Position numbers and translations under genes: made by a program
NCBI GenBank assembly: GCA_020056155.1
Contig: JAGVII010000224.1
Location: 1 to 11,114, forward strand
Direction of reading: 5' to 3'
DNA: 11,114 nucleotides
Source: Afipia sp.
GTDB lineage: Bacteria > Pseudomonadota > Alphaproteobacteria > Rhizobiales > Xanthobacteraceae
Shown: positions 6,745 through 11,114 of the stretch, in pieces
Position numbering within the stretch: position 1 is the first letter of the stretch
Layout: each line of letters begins with the position of its first letter
The notes under the pieces: generated by a model
Told to the model about the DNA's origin: nothing
Seen by the model: the letters and a program-made list of their open reading frames with translations, nothing else
Database searches by the model: none

Positions 6745-6780
6745 CGGCTTCCCTCCCCTCGGAGACTGCATCCATAGAAT

Positions 6781-6795
6781 AATAATGCAGTTATT
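6781..6795. promoter_or_regulatory. Inverted repeat AATAA-TGCAG-TTATT, candidate second operator of the ligase operon
   Basis: AATAATGCAGTTATT is a perfect 5-bp inverted repeat around TGCAG. It shares ATAATGCAG with the site at 6824-6832, exactly 42 bases apart, about four helical turns. It lies downstream of the predicted ligase transcription start. Cooperative binding of one regulator to both sites is plausible but inferred. Confidence 0.45.
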
Positions 6796-6814
6796 GCTGT
6801 CGCTCTTCGGCGAC

Positions 6815-6832
6815 TAATGCAATATAATGCAG
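6815..6832. promoter_or_regulatory. TGCA-N6-TGCA palindrome overlapping the ligase -10, candidate repressor operator
   Basis: TAATGCAATATAATGCAG contains two TAATGCA heptamers ten bases apart. Read as TGCAATATAATGCA (6818-6831), it is a near-perfect palindrome with one mismatched pair. The AT-rich motif stands out in otherwise GC-rich DNA and coincides with the predicted -10 of the minus-strand promoter, as expected for a repressor such as a MarR-type regulator. No regulator gene is in the window. Confidence 0.55.
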
Positions 6833-6851
6833 ATTGTTTAGAACGTGTCAA
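6822..6851 (-). promoter_or_regulatory. Predicted sigma-70 promoter of the ligase/ABC importer operon
   Basis: On the minus strand a perfect -35 TTGACA (plus strand 6846-6851) is followed after 18 bases by TTATAT (6822-6827), or after 17 by ATTATA. The transcription start would fall near 6815, giving a leader of about 70 bases before the short ORF at 6744. The -10 is covered by the palindrome at 6815-6832. Confidence 0.55.
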
Positions 6852-7009
6852 TTGCCGTCCGTGTGGCGTGACCGCGGCAGCATGACGCCTAAAATTTAAG
6901 CGCCGGCACGAATCCCTATCCGGCGTTCGCCGCCCCACCGGCCCGCGCCGCGCGCATCAACCCGTTGTTCTGCATCGCCAATCTCCCGCCTCGGGGATCG
7001 CATCGAACG
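6852..7009. other. Intergenic stretch with no gene recognised
   Basis: This is the middle of the divergent control region. It holds a weak inverted repeat, GGCGT (6865-6869) with ACGCC (6885-6889), and a short AT tract near 6891-6899. I looked for an NtrC site (TGCAC-N7-GTGCA type) that would serve as enhancer for the sigma-54 promoter and saw no clear match. No convincing ORF or RNA gene is seen. Confidence 0.5.
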
Positions 7010-7019
7010 TTGTACACAA
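7010..7019. promoter_or_regulatory. TTGT-AC-ACAA inverted repeat next to the sigma-54 promoter
   Basis: TTGTACACAA contains TTGT and ACAA as inverted 4-bp arms and directly abuts the -24 element. Sites of this shape are typical of FadR-subfamily GntR regulators, so it could be an operator. At this length a chance occurrence is possible. Confidence 0.3.
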
Positions 7020-7035
7020 TGGCACACCGCTTGCT
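7020..7035 (+). promoter_or_regulatory. Sigma-54 (RpoN) promoter of the biuret hydrolase / permease / allophanate hydrolase cluster
   Basis: TGGCACACCGCTTGCT matches the -24/-12 consensus TGGCAC-N5-TTGCW. The invariant GG (7021-7022) and GC (7033-7034) are separated by exactly ten bases. Transcription would start near 7046, about 20 bases before the hydrolase ATG at 7066, leaving room for the Shine-Dalgarno. Sigma-54 promoters often serve nitrogen-limitation genes activated by NtrC, which fits the cluster. Confidence 0.8.
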
Positions 7036-7065
7036 TCGTTGAGACCGACGAAGAAGGTGATGCCG

Positions 7066-7764
7066 ATGCCGCCAATTAAAAATTCGCTCGTGGCCGAACC
7101 GGCCCCGGTCAGCGTGGTGTGGACGAAGACAGCACTCGTCATCATCGACATGCAGCGCGACTTCCTCGAGCCCGGCGGCTTCGGTGAGACCCTCGGCAAC
7201 GATGTCTCGCAACTCGCAAGCGCCGTGAGACCTTGCGGCCGCGTGCTCGACGCGTTTCGCAAGGCGGGCCTGCTCGTCATTCACACACGCGAAGGTCATC
7301 TGCCGGATCTGTCAGACGCGCCACCCGCCAAGATCGAACGCGGCGCGCCGTCGCTGCGCATCGGCGATCCCGGTCCGATGGGGCGCATTCTCATTCGCGG
7401 CGAAGCGGGCCACGACATCGTCGAAGCGCTGTATCCGGTCAACGGCGAGATCGTGATCGACAAGCCCGGCAAGGGCGCGTTCTACGCGACCGATCTCGGC
7501 GACATTCTGAAACAGCGCGGCATCGAAACGCTGCTGGTGTGCGGCGTCACCACCGAGGTCTGCGTCAACACCACCGTGCGCGAAGCCAACGACCGCGGCT
7601 ACCGCTGCGTCGTGCTGGCGGACTGCTGCGCATCCTACTTCCCCGAATTTCACGAGATGGGCCTGCGCATGATCAAGGCGCAGGGCGGTATCTTCGGCTG
7701 GGTCAGTTCATCGTCAGAGGTTTTAGCGGCACTGAGTTCCGAACCATCGAAAATGATCGCATAG
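7066..7764 (+). CDS. Isochorismatase-fold cysteine amidohydrolase, probable biuret hydrolase (BiuH-like)
   Basis: This is a cytoplasmic amidase of the isochorismatase-like cysteine hydrolase family, 232 residues. The catalytic triad is visible: Asp28 in IIDMQRDF, Lys133 in IDKPGKG, and Cys166 in VTTEVCV. The Lys-Cys spacing of 33 equals that of the characterised Rhizobium BiuH (Asp36, Lys142, Cys175). The segments [40 protein letters not shown] and KAQGGIFG also resemble BiuH as I remember it. The loop after the catalytic Cys ([10 protein letters not shown]) differs from my memory of BiuH. BiuH turns biuret into allophanate plus ammonia, and allophanate hydrolase lies two genes downstream. 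I chose ATG 7066 because AAGG is eight bases upstream; ATG 7060 is too close to it and TTG 7039 would lie upstream of the predicted transcription start. Alternatives are triuret hydrolase or another ureide amidase such as a RutB relative. Confidence 0.8.
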
Positions 7765-7773
7765 GGGCGCGTG

Positions 7774-9360
7774 ATGAGCACATCAGACACGGCTGTGGCT
7801 TCCGGCAAACCGATCCTGTGGGCCCCGGGCGACTGGAACGCCTTTTTCGGCTTCGGCACCAACATTCTCGTCAACATGCTGACGCTGACGGCGCTGCTGC
7901 GCTTCGTGCTGAAAATGCCGGACTCGCTGGTGTTCGGGCGCATCCTGCCGGCGCTCGGGCTGATGATGTTCCTCTCAACGATGTATTACGCGTGGCTGGC
8001 CTATCGCCTTGCGCAGAAGACGGGACGCAACGATGTCTGTGCATTGCCATCAGGCGTCAGCGTTCCGCACATGTTCATCGTCACGTTCGTGATCATGCTG
8101 CCGATCCTGTTAAAAACCAACGATCCGATCAAGGCATGGGAAGCAGGCCTCACCTGGGTGTTCATCCAGAGCTTCATCCTGATGGCGGGCGGCTTCATCG
8201 CGCCATGGATTCAACGCATCACGCCGCGCGCGGCGCTGCTCGGCACGCTCGCCGGCGTTTCGATCGCGTTCATTTCGATGCGCCCGGCGTTCGAGATGTT
8301 CATGACGCCCGTGATCGGCCTGACATGTTTCGCCGTCATTCTCGCGAGCTGGTTCGGCGGCGTGAAATATCCCAAGGGCATTCCGGCGGGCCTCGTGGCC
8401 ATTTTCGTCGGCACCGTGATCGCGTGGGGCTCGAACGTCTTCGGCCTCAATATCGGCGGCATGAGTCTGGCGAAGCTCGGCGCGGCGTTCAGCAATATCG
8501 GTTTCTCGCTGCCGATCCCCGCCATTGGCCACGTGTTCTCAGGCTTTGAATTCATCGGCATCATTCTCGTCACCGCGATTCCGTTCGGCGTCTACGATCT
8601 GGTCGAGGCGATGGACAACGTGGAGAGCGCGGAAGCCGCGGGCGATCACTATCCGACCACGCGCGTGCTGACCGCCGACGGCGTGGTCAGCCTGATCGGC
8701 GCGCTGATGGGCAATCCCTTCATCAACGCGGTCTACATCGGCCATCCCGGCTGGAAGGCGATGGGCGGCCGCATCGGTTACTCGGCCGCGACCGGGGTCA
8801 TGGTGATCGTGCTGGCGTGGCTAGGCGTGATCTCGCTGCTGCTGAATCTTGTGCCGGTCGTCGCGATCCTGCCGATCCTGCTTTACATCGGCATGCTGGT
8901 CGGCGCGCAGGCATTTCAGGCGACGCCCGCGAGCCACGCGCCGGCCATCGTACTCGCATTGACGCCGCATCTCGCCGCATGGGGCAAAACCCTTGTGGAC
9001 GGCGCACTCACGGCGGCCGGCACCAGCGCCGCAGCCGTCGGCATGGACAAACTCGGCGCCACCGGCGTGCTTTATCGCGGCCTCGAAATTCTCGGCGAAG
9101 GCTCGATCCTCTCGGGACTGGTGCTGGCCGCGATGGCGGTGTTCGTGATCGAGCGGGATTTCGTCAAGGCCTCCGCCTTCGCGGCAGCCGGTGCCGTTCT
9201 CACCTTCTTCGGCTTCATGCACGGGCCGGCGGTCGGGATCGGCGTGACGCCGGAGGTTGCGCTGGCCTATGCTCTGGTGGCTGCGGGCTTCTTCGCCTAT
9301 GCCAGATCGGGCGCGGCGACGGCGGCAATGCCCAAGCCTGCCACCGTGCCGGCGGAATAA
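7774..9360 (+). CDS. NCS2/AzgA-like inner-membrane permease, probable ureide or heterocycle importer
   Basis: A 528-residue integral membrane protein with about 12-14 hydrophobic helices, resembling the xanthine/uracil/AzgA permeases of the UraA fold. Candidate substrate-site segments are IPFGVYDLVEAMDNVESAEAAGDHYP (about 269-294, TM8 region) and GNPFINAVYIGHPGWKAMGGR (313-333, TM10 region). The TM10 region aligns with the UraA stretch that ends in TTYGENIG, but here YIGHPG stands in place of the conserved acidic position, so the substrate is probably not a plain nucleobase. I took ATG 7774 over GTG 7771 because AGGGG ends six bases upstream. It begins nine bases after the hydrolase stop, so the two are cotranscribed. 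Uptake of biuret or a related ureide is inferred from the neighbours only. Confidence 0.82.
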   Translation: MSTSDTAVASGKPILWAPGDWNAFFGFGTNILVNMLTLTALLRFVLKMPDSLVFGRILPALGLMMFLSTMYYAWLAYRLAQKTGRNDVCALPSGVSVPHMFIVTFVIMLPILLKTNDPIKAWEAGLTWVFIQSFILMAGGFIAPWIQRITPRAALLGTLAGVSIAFISMRPAFEMFMTPVIGLTCFAVILASWFGGVKYPKGIPAGLVAIFVGTVIAWGSNVFGLNIGGMSLAKLGAAFSNIGFSLPIPAIGHVFSGFEFIGIILVTAIPFGVYDLVEAMDNVESAEAAGDHYPTTRVLTADGVVSLIGALMGNPFINAVYIGHPGWKAMGGRIGYSAATGVMVIVLAWLGVISLLLNLVPVVAILPILLYIGMLVGAQAFQATPASHAPAIVLALTPHLAAWGKTLVDGALTAAGTSAAAVGMDKLGATGVLYRGLEILGEGSILSGLVLAAMAVFVIERDFVKASAFAAAGAVLTFFGFMHGPAVGIGVTPEVALAYALVAAGFFAYARSGAATAAMPKPATVPAE

Positions 9361-9391: not shown

Positions 9392-11114
9392 GTGACCGAG
9401 ACTGTTGCCGAGATCGTCGCCGCGCATCGCGCGCGGACGACATCACCTGCCGAGACCGTTGCACGCAGCTTCCAGCGCATCCGCGACCACGGCGATGAAG
9501 CCATCTTCATCAGCCTGCGCAATGAGGCCGAGGCCATCGCCGAAGCCGAGGCGCTGATGGCGAAGGGCGACACGTCGCTGCCGCTGTATGGCGTGCCGGT
9601 GGCCGTGAAGGACAACATCGACGTCGCGGGCCTTGCAACCACTGCCGCCTGCCCTGCCTTCTCCTATATGCCGGCGCAAGACGCCAACACGGTGGCACGG
9701 CTGCGCGCAGCCGGCGCCATCGTGATCGGCAAGACCAACCTCGATCAGTTCGCGACGGGCCTCGTCGGCGTGCGCTCGCCCTACGGCATTCCGAAGAATG
9801 CGGTGAATGGCGATCTCGTCCCCGGCGGATCGAGTTCGGGCTCCGCTGTCGCGGTGTCGGCGGGACTGGTGCCGCTGTCGCTCGGCACCGATACCGCAGG
9901 CTCCGGCCGTGTACCCGCGATGCTCAACAACATCGTCGGGCTTAAACCCTCTTTGGGGCTGATGTCGACCTCGGGCGTGCTGCCCGCCTGCCGCACTCTC
10001 GATTGCGTGTCGATCTTCTCGCTCAATGTCGACGACGCCATGATCGCGCTCAATGCGATGGCCGGATACGACGCCGCCGATCCCTATTCGCGCGACCGCT
10101 TTGTCGGCCCGGTGACGGGTTTTCCGCCGGGCATCCGGCTCGGCATTCCGCGCAAGGGACAACTGAAATTTTTCGGCGATGCTCTCTCCGAGCAGGGTTA
10201 CGACGCGGCGGTGGCGCGGCTGACCGCGCTCGGCGCCACGCCGGTCGAGTTCGACCTCGAGCCATTCTACGAGACCGCGCGGTTGCTCTACGAAGGGCCG
10301 TGGGTCGCGGAGCGATATCTGGTGATCCGCGATCTGCTCGCGGCCGATCCCGATGCGGTTCATCCGGTGACGCGCGAAATCACGCTTCAGGGAGAAAAAC
10401 TCACGGCTGCGGACACCTTCGCGGCGCTCTACAAGCTAGAGGCCATGCGGCAAATCAGCCGGACGACCTTCGAGAGCATCGATGCCATGGTGCTGCCGAC
10501 CGCGCCAACGGCCTACACCGTCGAACAGGTGCTGGCGAACCCGATCGAACTGAACAGCCGCAACGGCACCTACACCAATTTCGTCAACCTGCTGGACCTG
10601 TGCGGCCTCGCCGTGCCGGCATCGATGCGCAGCGACGGCATTCCGTTCGGCATCACGCTGCTCGCGCCTGCGGGCCGCGATGCGCAACTCGCCAGCATCG
10701 GGCGCGTGTTTCATGCCGACACCAAGCTCAAGACCGGCGCCAAGGGCGTGGCGCAACCGCCGCTCACGCCGGTCTCGAAAGAACCCGGCAAGGACGAAGT
10801 GGCCATCGTCGCGGTCGGCGCGCACCTGTCGGGCATGGCGCTGAACCATGAACTGCTGTCGCTCGGCGGCCGCCTGATCGAGGCGACATCGACCACGCCG
10901 GACTACAGGCTCTATGCGCTGAAGGGCACGGTGCCGCCCAAACCCGGGATGCTGCGCGTCGACCCCGGCACGGGTTCTGCCATCGCCGTCGAAGTGTGGG
11001 CGCTGCCGACAAAGGCTTTCGGCGCATTCGTCGCCGCGATTCCCTCGCCGCTGTCGATCGGCACCGTGCGTCTTGCAGACGGCTCCGGCGTCAAGGGCTT
11101 TCTGGTCGAGGCCG
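9392..11114 (+). CDS. atzF: Allophanate hydrolase (partial, C-terminal end beyond window)
   Basis: This enzyme hydrolyses allophanate, ending in ammonia and CO2. About 574 of the usual 600 or so residues are visible, and the frame stays open to the window edge. The amidase-signature domain has the Ser-cisSer-Lys triad: Lys73 in VAVKDN, Ser147 in PGGSSSGSA, and Ser171 in DTAGSGRVPA. The 74 and 24 residue spacings match those of AtzF (Lys91, Ser165, Ser189). LLYEGPWVAERY (298-309) holds the Tyr/Arg pair, eight apart, that binds allophanate in the yeast enzyme. From about residue 468 the second, AtzF-type domain begins, with VGAHLSGMALNHELLSLGG. The GTG start has GGGAAG six bases upstream. It follows the permease by 31 bases. 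No urea carboxylase is in view, so allophanate probably comes from the BiuH-like enzyme. Confidence 0.93.
   Translation, partial: MTETVAEIVAAHRARTTSPAETVARSFQRIRDHGDEAIFISLRNEAEAIAEAEALMAKGDTSLPLYGVPVAVKDNIDVAGLATTAACPAFSYMPAQDANTVARLRAAGAIVIGKTNLDQFATGLVGVRSPYGIPKNAVNGDLVPGGSSSGSAVAVSAGLVPLSLGTDTAGSGRVPAMLNNIVGLKPSLGLMSTSGVLPACRTLDCVSIFSLNVDDAMIALNAMAGYDAADPYSRDRFVGPVTGFPPGIRLGIPRKGQLKFFGDALSEQGYDAAVARLTALGATPVEFDLEPFYETARLLYEGPWVAERYLVIRDLLAADPDAVHPVTREITLQGEKLTAADTFAALYKLEAMRQISRTTFESIDAMVLPTAPTAYTVEQVLANPIELNSRNGTYTNFVNLLDLCGLAVPASMRSDGIPFGITLLAPAGRDAQLASIGRVFHADTKLKTGAKGVAQPPLTPVSKEPGKDEVAIVAVGAHLSGMALNHELLSLGGRLIEATSTTPDYRLYALKGTVPPKPGMLRVDPGTGSAIAVEVWALPTKAFGAFVAAIPSPLSIGTVRLADGSGVKGFLVEA

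Follow-up and report, generated by a model that had tools for sequence, protein, structure and literature searches.

Alphaproteobacterial promoters governed by NtrC and sigma-54, such as that of glnB(A), combine a -24/-12 element with a dyad located ~100-150 bases upstream and serve a nitrogen function; glnB and glnK are classical NtrC targets, and NtrC controls glnB. In Pseudomonas sp. ADP, the atzDGEHF genes stand under the LysR regulator AtzR and under nitrogen control. Their products process 1-carboxybiuret, which is deaminated by AtzEG, with AtzH indicated to turn the resulting compound into allophanate before AtzF acts (PMC6219798, in part). In Herbaspirillum, triuret, a fertiliser impurity and urate oxidation product whose degraders are largely plant-associated, is degraded through TrtA, BiuH and AtzF, with carboxybiuret as the product of TrtA (PMC7948467, in part). 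In Bradyrhizobium sp. DOA9, genes for AtzF, AtzE and an isochorismatase fall in expression in rpoN mutants kept under microaerobic conditions without fixed nitrogen; the isochorismatase gene, BRADOA9_v1_41390, bears the site TGGCACGGCGCTTGC at -37 and was placed among infection- or virulence-like genes (PMC13207237, 2026, in part).

The window analysed here, a stretch of 11,114 nucleotides from Afipia sp., carries three consecutive genes, for a hydrolase, a permease and an allophanate hydrolase, which a preliminary description had placed under RpoN. We consider it probable that these genes are headed by a working sigma-54 promoter, one of three co-regulated kinds activated by NtrC and repressed by a GntR-type regulator, and that they serve a triuret route free of BiuH. 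The features of the window that bear on this reading are the following:

6886-6902, + strand: enhancer-like dyad CGCCTAAAATTTAAGCG, candidate NtrC site, 134 bases 5' of the T of the -24 element, centred at about -152 from the predicted start
7010-7019, no strand: operator-like box TTGTACACAA, adjoining the -24 element, at predicted positions -36 to -27
7020-7035, + strand: sigma-54 -24/-12 promoter element TGGCACACCGCTTGCT, matching 11 of 11 consensus positions, of a kind present in 70 of 99 trtA loci
7046, + strand: predicted transcription start, 12 bases 3' of the C in the -12 GC, placed by sigma-54 promoter geometry
7052-7057, + strand: Shine-Dalgarno-like AGAAGG, read from the sequence, 8 bases 5' of ATG 7066
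7066-7764, + strand: TrtA-like cysteine hydrolase (predicted triuret hydrolase), from structure match, diagnostic residues and a BiuH score below cut-off
7774-9360, + strand: permease, predicted to take up triuret or a related ureide, from the names of its relatives and its linkage to trtA
9392-11113, + strand: allophanate hydrolase AtzF, NCBIfam TIGR02713, 780 bits for a cut-off of 511, running off the contig end, with a predicted start codon

The first gene of the unit had been described as BiuH-like, an assignment that our comparisons do not uphold. Its closest solved structure is 6xix, a TrtA (276 bits), ahead of the BiuH structures (222-227 bits), and its 265 bits did not reach the 370-bit cut-off of the BiuH equivalog NF050097. 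Six positions distinguish TrtA from BiuH (PMC7948467, in part), and all six carry the TrtA-diagnostic residue (F35, N41, A134, E160, Y187 and I205); the catalytic D24, K129 and C162 are all present. In terms of predicted activity, triuret hydrolase (TrtA-like) is a better reading of the gene than biuret hydrolase. An operon serving biuret or another ureide, with a promiscuous BiuH or a hydrolase of different substrate at its head, would be compatible with the close kinship of TrtA and BiuH and with the known promiscuity of one BiuH, RhdBiuH (PMC7948467, in part), but it is quite unlikely in view of the diagnostic residues, the top structure match and the sub-cut-off score. The permease matched none of the Pfam or NCBIfam families at E <= 0.001; it is named AGZA xanthine/uracil permease-like in JGI and 'regulator' in some NCBI records, and 65 of 80 trtA loci have a homologue of it in the stretch fetched. 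The conserved 226-aa gene that follows atzF in the same genus was considered as a GntR regulator and rejected, its sequence reading as an iron-dependent hydroxylase.

Upstream of trtA, the element TGGCACACCGCTTGCT places GG at 7021-7022 and GC at 7033-7034 with a spacing of ten bases, agrees with TGGCAC-N5-TTGCW at each of its 11 specified positions and ends 30 bases before ATG 7066, a start that agrees with AGAAGG at 7052-7057 and with the start in same-genus relatives. The GG-N10-GC core, the full consensus and the distance of about 30 bases reported in the preliminary description are thus borne out. It is the sole full match in the window, for ~0.009 expected per 11 kb at the genome's own base composition; over the 4.56-Mb genome, 5 full matches were found for 3.7 expected, and sites with at most one mismatch showed no excess (106 versus 110 in the reversed control). 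The string match alone is weak evidence given these two comparisons, and the reality of the sigma-54 element therefore rests on its conservation in relatives.

This conservation is extensive. The permease occurs in 7 of the 28 same-genus relatives searched, and an alignment of related genomes, which had been proposed as a check, revealed that all seven retain both the GG and the GC before the hydrolase gene while much of the flanking sequence drifts; loss of either dinucleotide in a close relative keeping the gene order was not seen. The order trtA-permease-atzF is kept in six of these seven cluster relatives, and in G011 the permease reads as two pieces with no atzF after it. At a broader scale, we examined 99 loci of trtA, 80 of them the best among 573 confirmed matches and 19 taken from the 20 stretches of relatives (L054, which had no TrtA match, was left out), with at least three genomes entered twice (L065/L078, L061/L101 and L060/L110). 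A site matching at least 9 of 11 positions and both dinucleotides was present in 70 of them, for ~3 expected from shuffled upstream regions. All 36 loci of the Bradyrhizobium/Afipia group and 34 of the 63 others bore such a site (shuffle means of 1.0 and 2.0), the group having been set by hand so that it takes in L079 and L101, with L058 and L061 counted among the others despite bearing the fused site described below. By the same criterion 29 of the 99 loci had no sigma-54 site, including all five actinobacterial loci (L145, L146, L150, L153 and L154). A chance consensus match, with which the genome-wide counts of 5 found and ~3.7 expected would agree, is extremely improbable and already largely contradicted by the conservation of position and dinucleotides across species and genera, as well as by the rpoN-mutant data in a relative (PMC13207237, in part). 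The window's genome also encodes rpoN, and we read 7020-7035 as a conserved sigma-54 promoter heading trtA-permease-atzF.

The DOA9 data bear on this promoter more closely. The TGGCACGGCGCTTGC core recurs in seven Bradyrhizobium trtA loci of our set, and it also stands before an unrelated EF-hand gene in the DOA9 table (PMC13207237, in part). From the shared core, BRADOA9_v1_41390 is probably trtA, and the RpoN dependence of atzF, atzE and the isochorismatase gene shown by others in this relative (PMC13207237, in part) would then cover the first gene of the cluster. Control of the hydrolase, permease and allophanate hydrolase by an RpoN promoter, as earlier proposed, is consequently supported by the conserved sigma-54 site and by the DOA9 mutants, and the link to nitrogen limitation is likely, as the three transcripts fall in rpoN mutants without fixed nitrogen (PMC13207237, in part). 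The RpoN regulon of DOA9 would have atzF, atzE and, if the isochorismatase bearing the TGGCACGGCGCTTGC core is trtA, this gene too in common with the regulon proposed here. If our reading is true, an enzyme grouped there with infection- or virulence-like genes would probably be a nitrogen-scavenging one. Neither the string TTGTACACAA nor the word GntR appears in the main text of that study (PMC13207237), and among the papers listed we recognised none dealing with the control of triuret or biuret genes by RpoN, NtrC or GntR.

Adjoining the -24 element, the box TTGTACACAA is a conserved element that the preliminary description overlooked. The 4.56-Mb genome contains just two copies of TTGTRYACAA, the second inside a frame reading as an ABC permease. 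Within the seven same-genus cluster relatives, five carry TTGTACACAA, one carries TTGTGCACAA and G011 has a more distant variant. The fused box and promoter, TTGTACACAATGGCAYN5TTGC, was found at 53 sites in 44 of 296 family genomes and nowhere in the reversed control, and the genes downstream of these sites were trtA (42) and atzF (11) and nothing else. Nine genomes have two fused sites, one before trtA and one before atzF, which there forms a separate unit. Of the 36 group loci, 32 had the looser pattern WTGYRYRCAW in the 250 bases before trtA, as did 21 of the 63 others (shuffle means of 1.5 and 1.6, maximum 4), the box patterns having been written after sight of these sequences. The elements are therefore conserved, they keep preferred positions, and the fused string is exclusive to trtA and atzF. 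If our reading is true, this string would constitute a sequence signature by which triuret genes can be recognised in the family, having been right in all 53 of its occurrences across the 296 genomes.

The box is not confined to one position: it adjoins the -24 element before trtA and atzF, lies near -106 in the transporter operon described below, and stands between the -12 element and the gene in other lineages, namely Ancylobacter and methanotroph loci, with WTGYRYRCAW found ~100 bases upstream in a few others. A box belonging to the sigma-54 consensus itself was ruled out by these shifts relative to -24, and, because its position differs between units and lineages, one repression mechanism may not fit all of them. 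In three Ancylobacter loci (L122, L129 and L140), inverted words ATGCATACA...TGTATGCA lie between the -12 element and the gene and not 5' of the -24 element, and L111 and L122 have a second operator-like word near -95 to -115. In the same-genus genome G002 (L264/L318), which has no permease match, the fused promoter lies directly before atzF and the 8 kb read contain no trtA, as though the promoter had outlasted a loss of trtA and the permease. Repeated words of the ATAATGCA type were also observed at 6776-6850 of the window, between the trtA promoter and a divergently oriented gene for an acyl-CoA ligase; they are partly conserved in four same-genus relatives and are possibly an operator of the divergent operon.

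Further upstream, the preliminary description had seen no clear NtrC enhancer site and had left open whether the activator was NtrC at a degenerate site or a dedicated enhancer-binding protein. The E. coli-type NtrC consensus is TGCACC-N5-GGTGCA, and for this type the statement stands, such dyads not being clearly enriched (14 of 70 scored at least 9, for ~9 expected from shuffles). A dyad of the glnB/glnK kind is nevertheless present at 6886-6902, so that the motif search then suggested does yield a candidate 134 bases before the -24 element. This is the sole match to GCNYA-N5-TRNGC in the window and the best match there to a matrix built from 12 glnB and glnK upstream sites of relatives (14.9 bits, the next scoring 5.9). 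Over the 53 fused promoters, the best matrix match exceeded the 95% shuffle level in 42, leaving 11 with no dyad above it, and fell at -134 to -120 in 41, a range in which 5% of positions lie; in the same-genus G019 and G025, the best match was elsewhere, near -287, and not at the place of the dyad. The matrix result is partly circular because the glnB/glnK sites were first picked with a template from trtA loci, and the glnK loci used had no convincing sigma-54 site. When twelve glnB promoters, representing two related groups, were searched blind to trtA, the upstream 17-mer of highest conservation coincided with the dyad, which lessens this circularity. An initial dyad pattern, which matched 16 of 42 Bradyrhizobium trtA upstream regions but none of 11 for atzF, was discarded and widened to GCNYA-N5-TRNGC. 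The latter, fitted to these data, matched 24 of 42 trtA and 9 of 11 atzF upstream regions (shuffle means of 0.4 and 0.2), exclusively at -119 to -123, -111/-112 and -84/-85 from the box. A candidate dyad is found at about the same position before the other two promoters of the proposed regulon.

The resemblance to glnB/glnK sites makes NtrC the likely activator at this dyad, to which it would bind. Six same-genus relatives encode five to eight enhancer-binding proteins each (E <= 1e-30), five of them shared by frame length, and the nearly complete G001, G014 and G015 have only five at this threshold, NtrC among them. Those of G014 are, by score, NtrC (741 bits for a cut-off of 559), NtrX, FlbD and an unnamed response regulator, the fifth being of PAS-type length; NtrC was recognised by frame length in the five other relatives. 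None of the enhancer-binding proteins found in the six relatives is encoded within 150 kb of trtA or, where that gene lies on a different contig, on that contig. The small number in the three nearly complete relatives, NtrC included, and the lack of any near trtA in the six make a dedicated enhancer-binding protein unlikely. Another member of the family might still activate the promoter with the dyad as its site, whether NtrX, a 643-aa PAS protein whose gene adjoins one reading as a nitrate-type ABC binding protein, or a response regulator of ~510 aa. All three are encoded in the window's own incomplete assembly, where ntrC was not found, and the dyad departs from the E. coli consensus. We nonetheless judge this improbable, since the own ntrX contig begins only 182 bases before ntrX, G014 carries a high-scoring NtrC, and the similar dyads stand upstream of genes that NtrC is known to control.

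With NtrC as the likely activator, the box calls for a second regulator, and its likely reader is an FCD-type GntR protein encoded in trans behind atzG-atzE-atzH, which would bind TTGTACACAA. In the window's genome, the corresponding gntR gene lies on another contig (G000:C624:3340-4005; 70% identity, FCD 89 bits, GntR 63 bits). Orthologs were defined by at least 60% identity to the query, G038's own protein, the match in G019 covering residues 71-226 only. All 7 same-genus genomes bearing the fused site had such an ortholog, compared with 4 of the 22 that lack the site (Fisher 2e-4); once the variant-site genomes G001 and G011 were moved over, the figures became 9 of 9 and 2 of 20 (5e-6), both tests ignoring kinship. 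Over 71 genomes, and with kinship likewise ignored, the ortholog was present in 12 of the 16 that have the permease and in 7 of the 55 that do not. It was also found in all 19 Bradyrhizobium genomes sampled, and a profile search located a GntR protein in the fetched stretch of 18 of the 99 trtA loci, including beta- and gammaproteobacteria. A gntR gene is likewise marked in biuH contigs of ammonia oxidisers in a figure legend of PMC12625717 (in part). The association is incomplete in both directions: ten loci have the ortholog and no strict box, and six box loci have no ortholog at 60% identity or more, four of these six having a more distant GntR nearby.

In the same genus, gntR is the last gene of an ABC transporter-atzG-atzE-atzH-gntR operon, whose products include AtzE (736 bits for a cut-off of 461), an AtzH-like protein (195 bits; HpxZ in NCBIfam naming) and an AtzG-like protein (63-67 bits). 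This operon has its own sigma-54 site 55-73 bases 5' of the first gene. Enough upstream sequence was at hand for 8 Bradyrhizobium and 4 Afipia-genus cases (L187, L189, L191 and L192 being too short); all 12 have TTGYATGCAA (TTGTATGCAA, once TTGCATGCAA) at -104 to -107, and 11 of them have the dyad at -133 to -135. Compared with glnB(A) promoters, the palindrome is thus the distinctive part, fused to the -24 element before trtA and atzF or, in the transporter operon, standing between the dyad and the sigma-54 site.

FadR-type GntR sites resemble one another. A further word, TTGTATACAA, was observed in seven same-genus genomes (L186-L192, ~13.4-14.4 kb) near what read from the sequence as apparent nicotinate catabolism genes beside the gntR operon; it was set aside on account of this likeness.

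These promoters could also be plain sigma-54/NtrC promoters, with the box an extended promoter feature or the site of an unrelated factor and the co-occurrence of GntR a matter of pathway linkage. The sigma-54 site and the NtrC-type dyad would suffice for nitrogen control, and the ten loci with the ortholog and no strict box fit this view. An extended promoter motif would not, however, recur at shifted positions in distant lineages and at about -106 in the gntR operon. The fused string, moreover, stands only before trtA and atzF, and we regard this explanation as unlikely.

Taken with the GntR reading of the box, these data outline three kinds of promoter. One belongs to trtA, the second to atzF, which in Bradyrhizobium forms a separate unit, and the third to the ABC transporter-atzG-atzE-atzH-gntR operon. 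Under nitrogen starvation, NtrC on the dyad at about -134 would drive opening of the sigma-54 complex. In the absence of the substrate or an intermediate, a dimer of the FCD-type GntR on the TTGTACACAA box, at -36 to -27, would hinder polymerase as a repressor, and the inducer, presumably the substrate or an intermediate, would release GntR from the box. The chances seem evenly balanced that Bradyrhizobium, Afipia and their relatives possess a three-promoter triuret regulon of this form, each promoter combining sigma-54, an NtrC-type enhancer and a GntR-type operator, with the operator fused to -24 in two of the units, with both starvation and inducer needed, and with a TrtA-AtzEG-AtzH-AtzF pathway. 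We found no earlier description of such a regulon in the literature searched. If true, it would provide a candidate regulator, a BiuH-free route and a case of a pathway operator fused to a sigma-54 -24 element.

In the proposed pathway, triuret would be converted successively by TrtA, AtzEG, AtzH and AtzF to ammonia, bypassing BiuH. No BiuH above the family cut-off was found in the window's own genome or in nine relatives. The locus shares TrtA and AtzF with the Herbaspirillum pathway and differs from it by this lack of a BiuH over the cut-off and by the presence of AtzG-AtzE-AtzH in the proposed regulon (PMC7948467, in part). It would share with atzDGEHF of Pseudomonas sp. ADP the passage from 1-carboxybiuret through AtzEG and AtzH to AtzF (PMC6219798, in part). 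The common ground would extend to the combination of this pathway with nitrogen control, and the differences would lie in entry by TrtA and not AtzD, in a GntR/FCD and not a LysR regulator, and in the distribution of the genes over separate sigma-54 units.

Elsewhere in the window's genome, one contig (G000:C628, L068) bears three sigma-54-like sites within 2 kb, at 213, 876 and 1960, two of them of full consensus. They stand ahead of branched-chain-type ABC genes, each ~30-50 bases before an open frame, and these frames read from the sequence as CoA-ligase-like fragments and a TctC-like binding protein.
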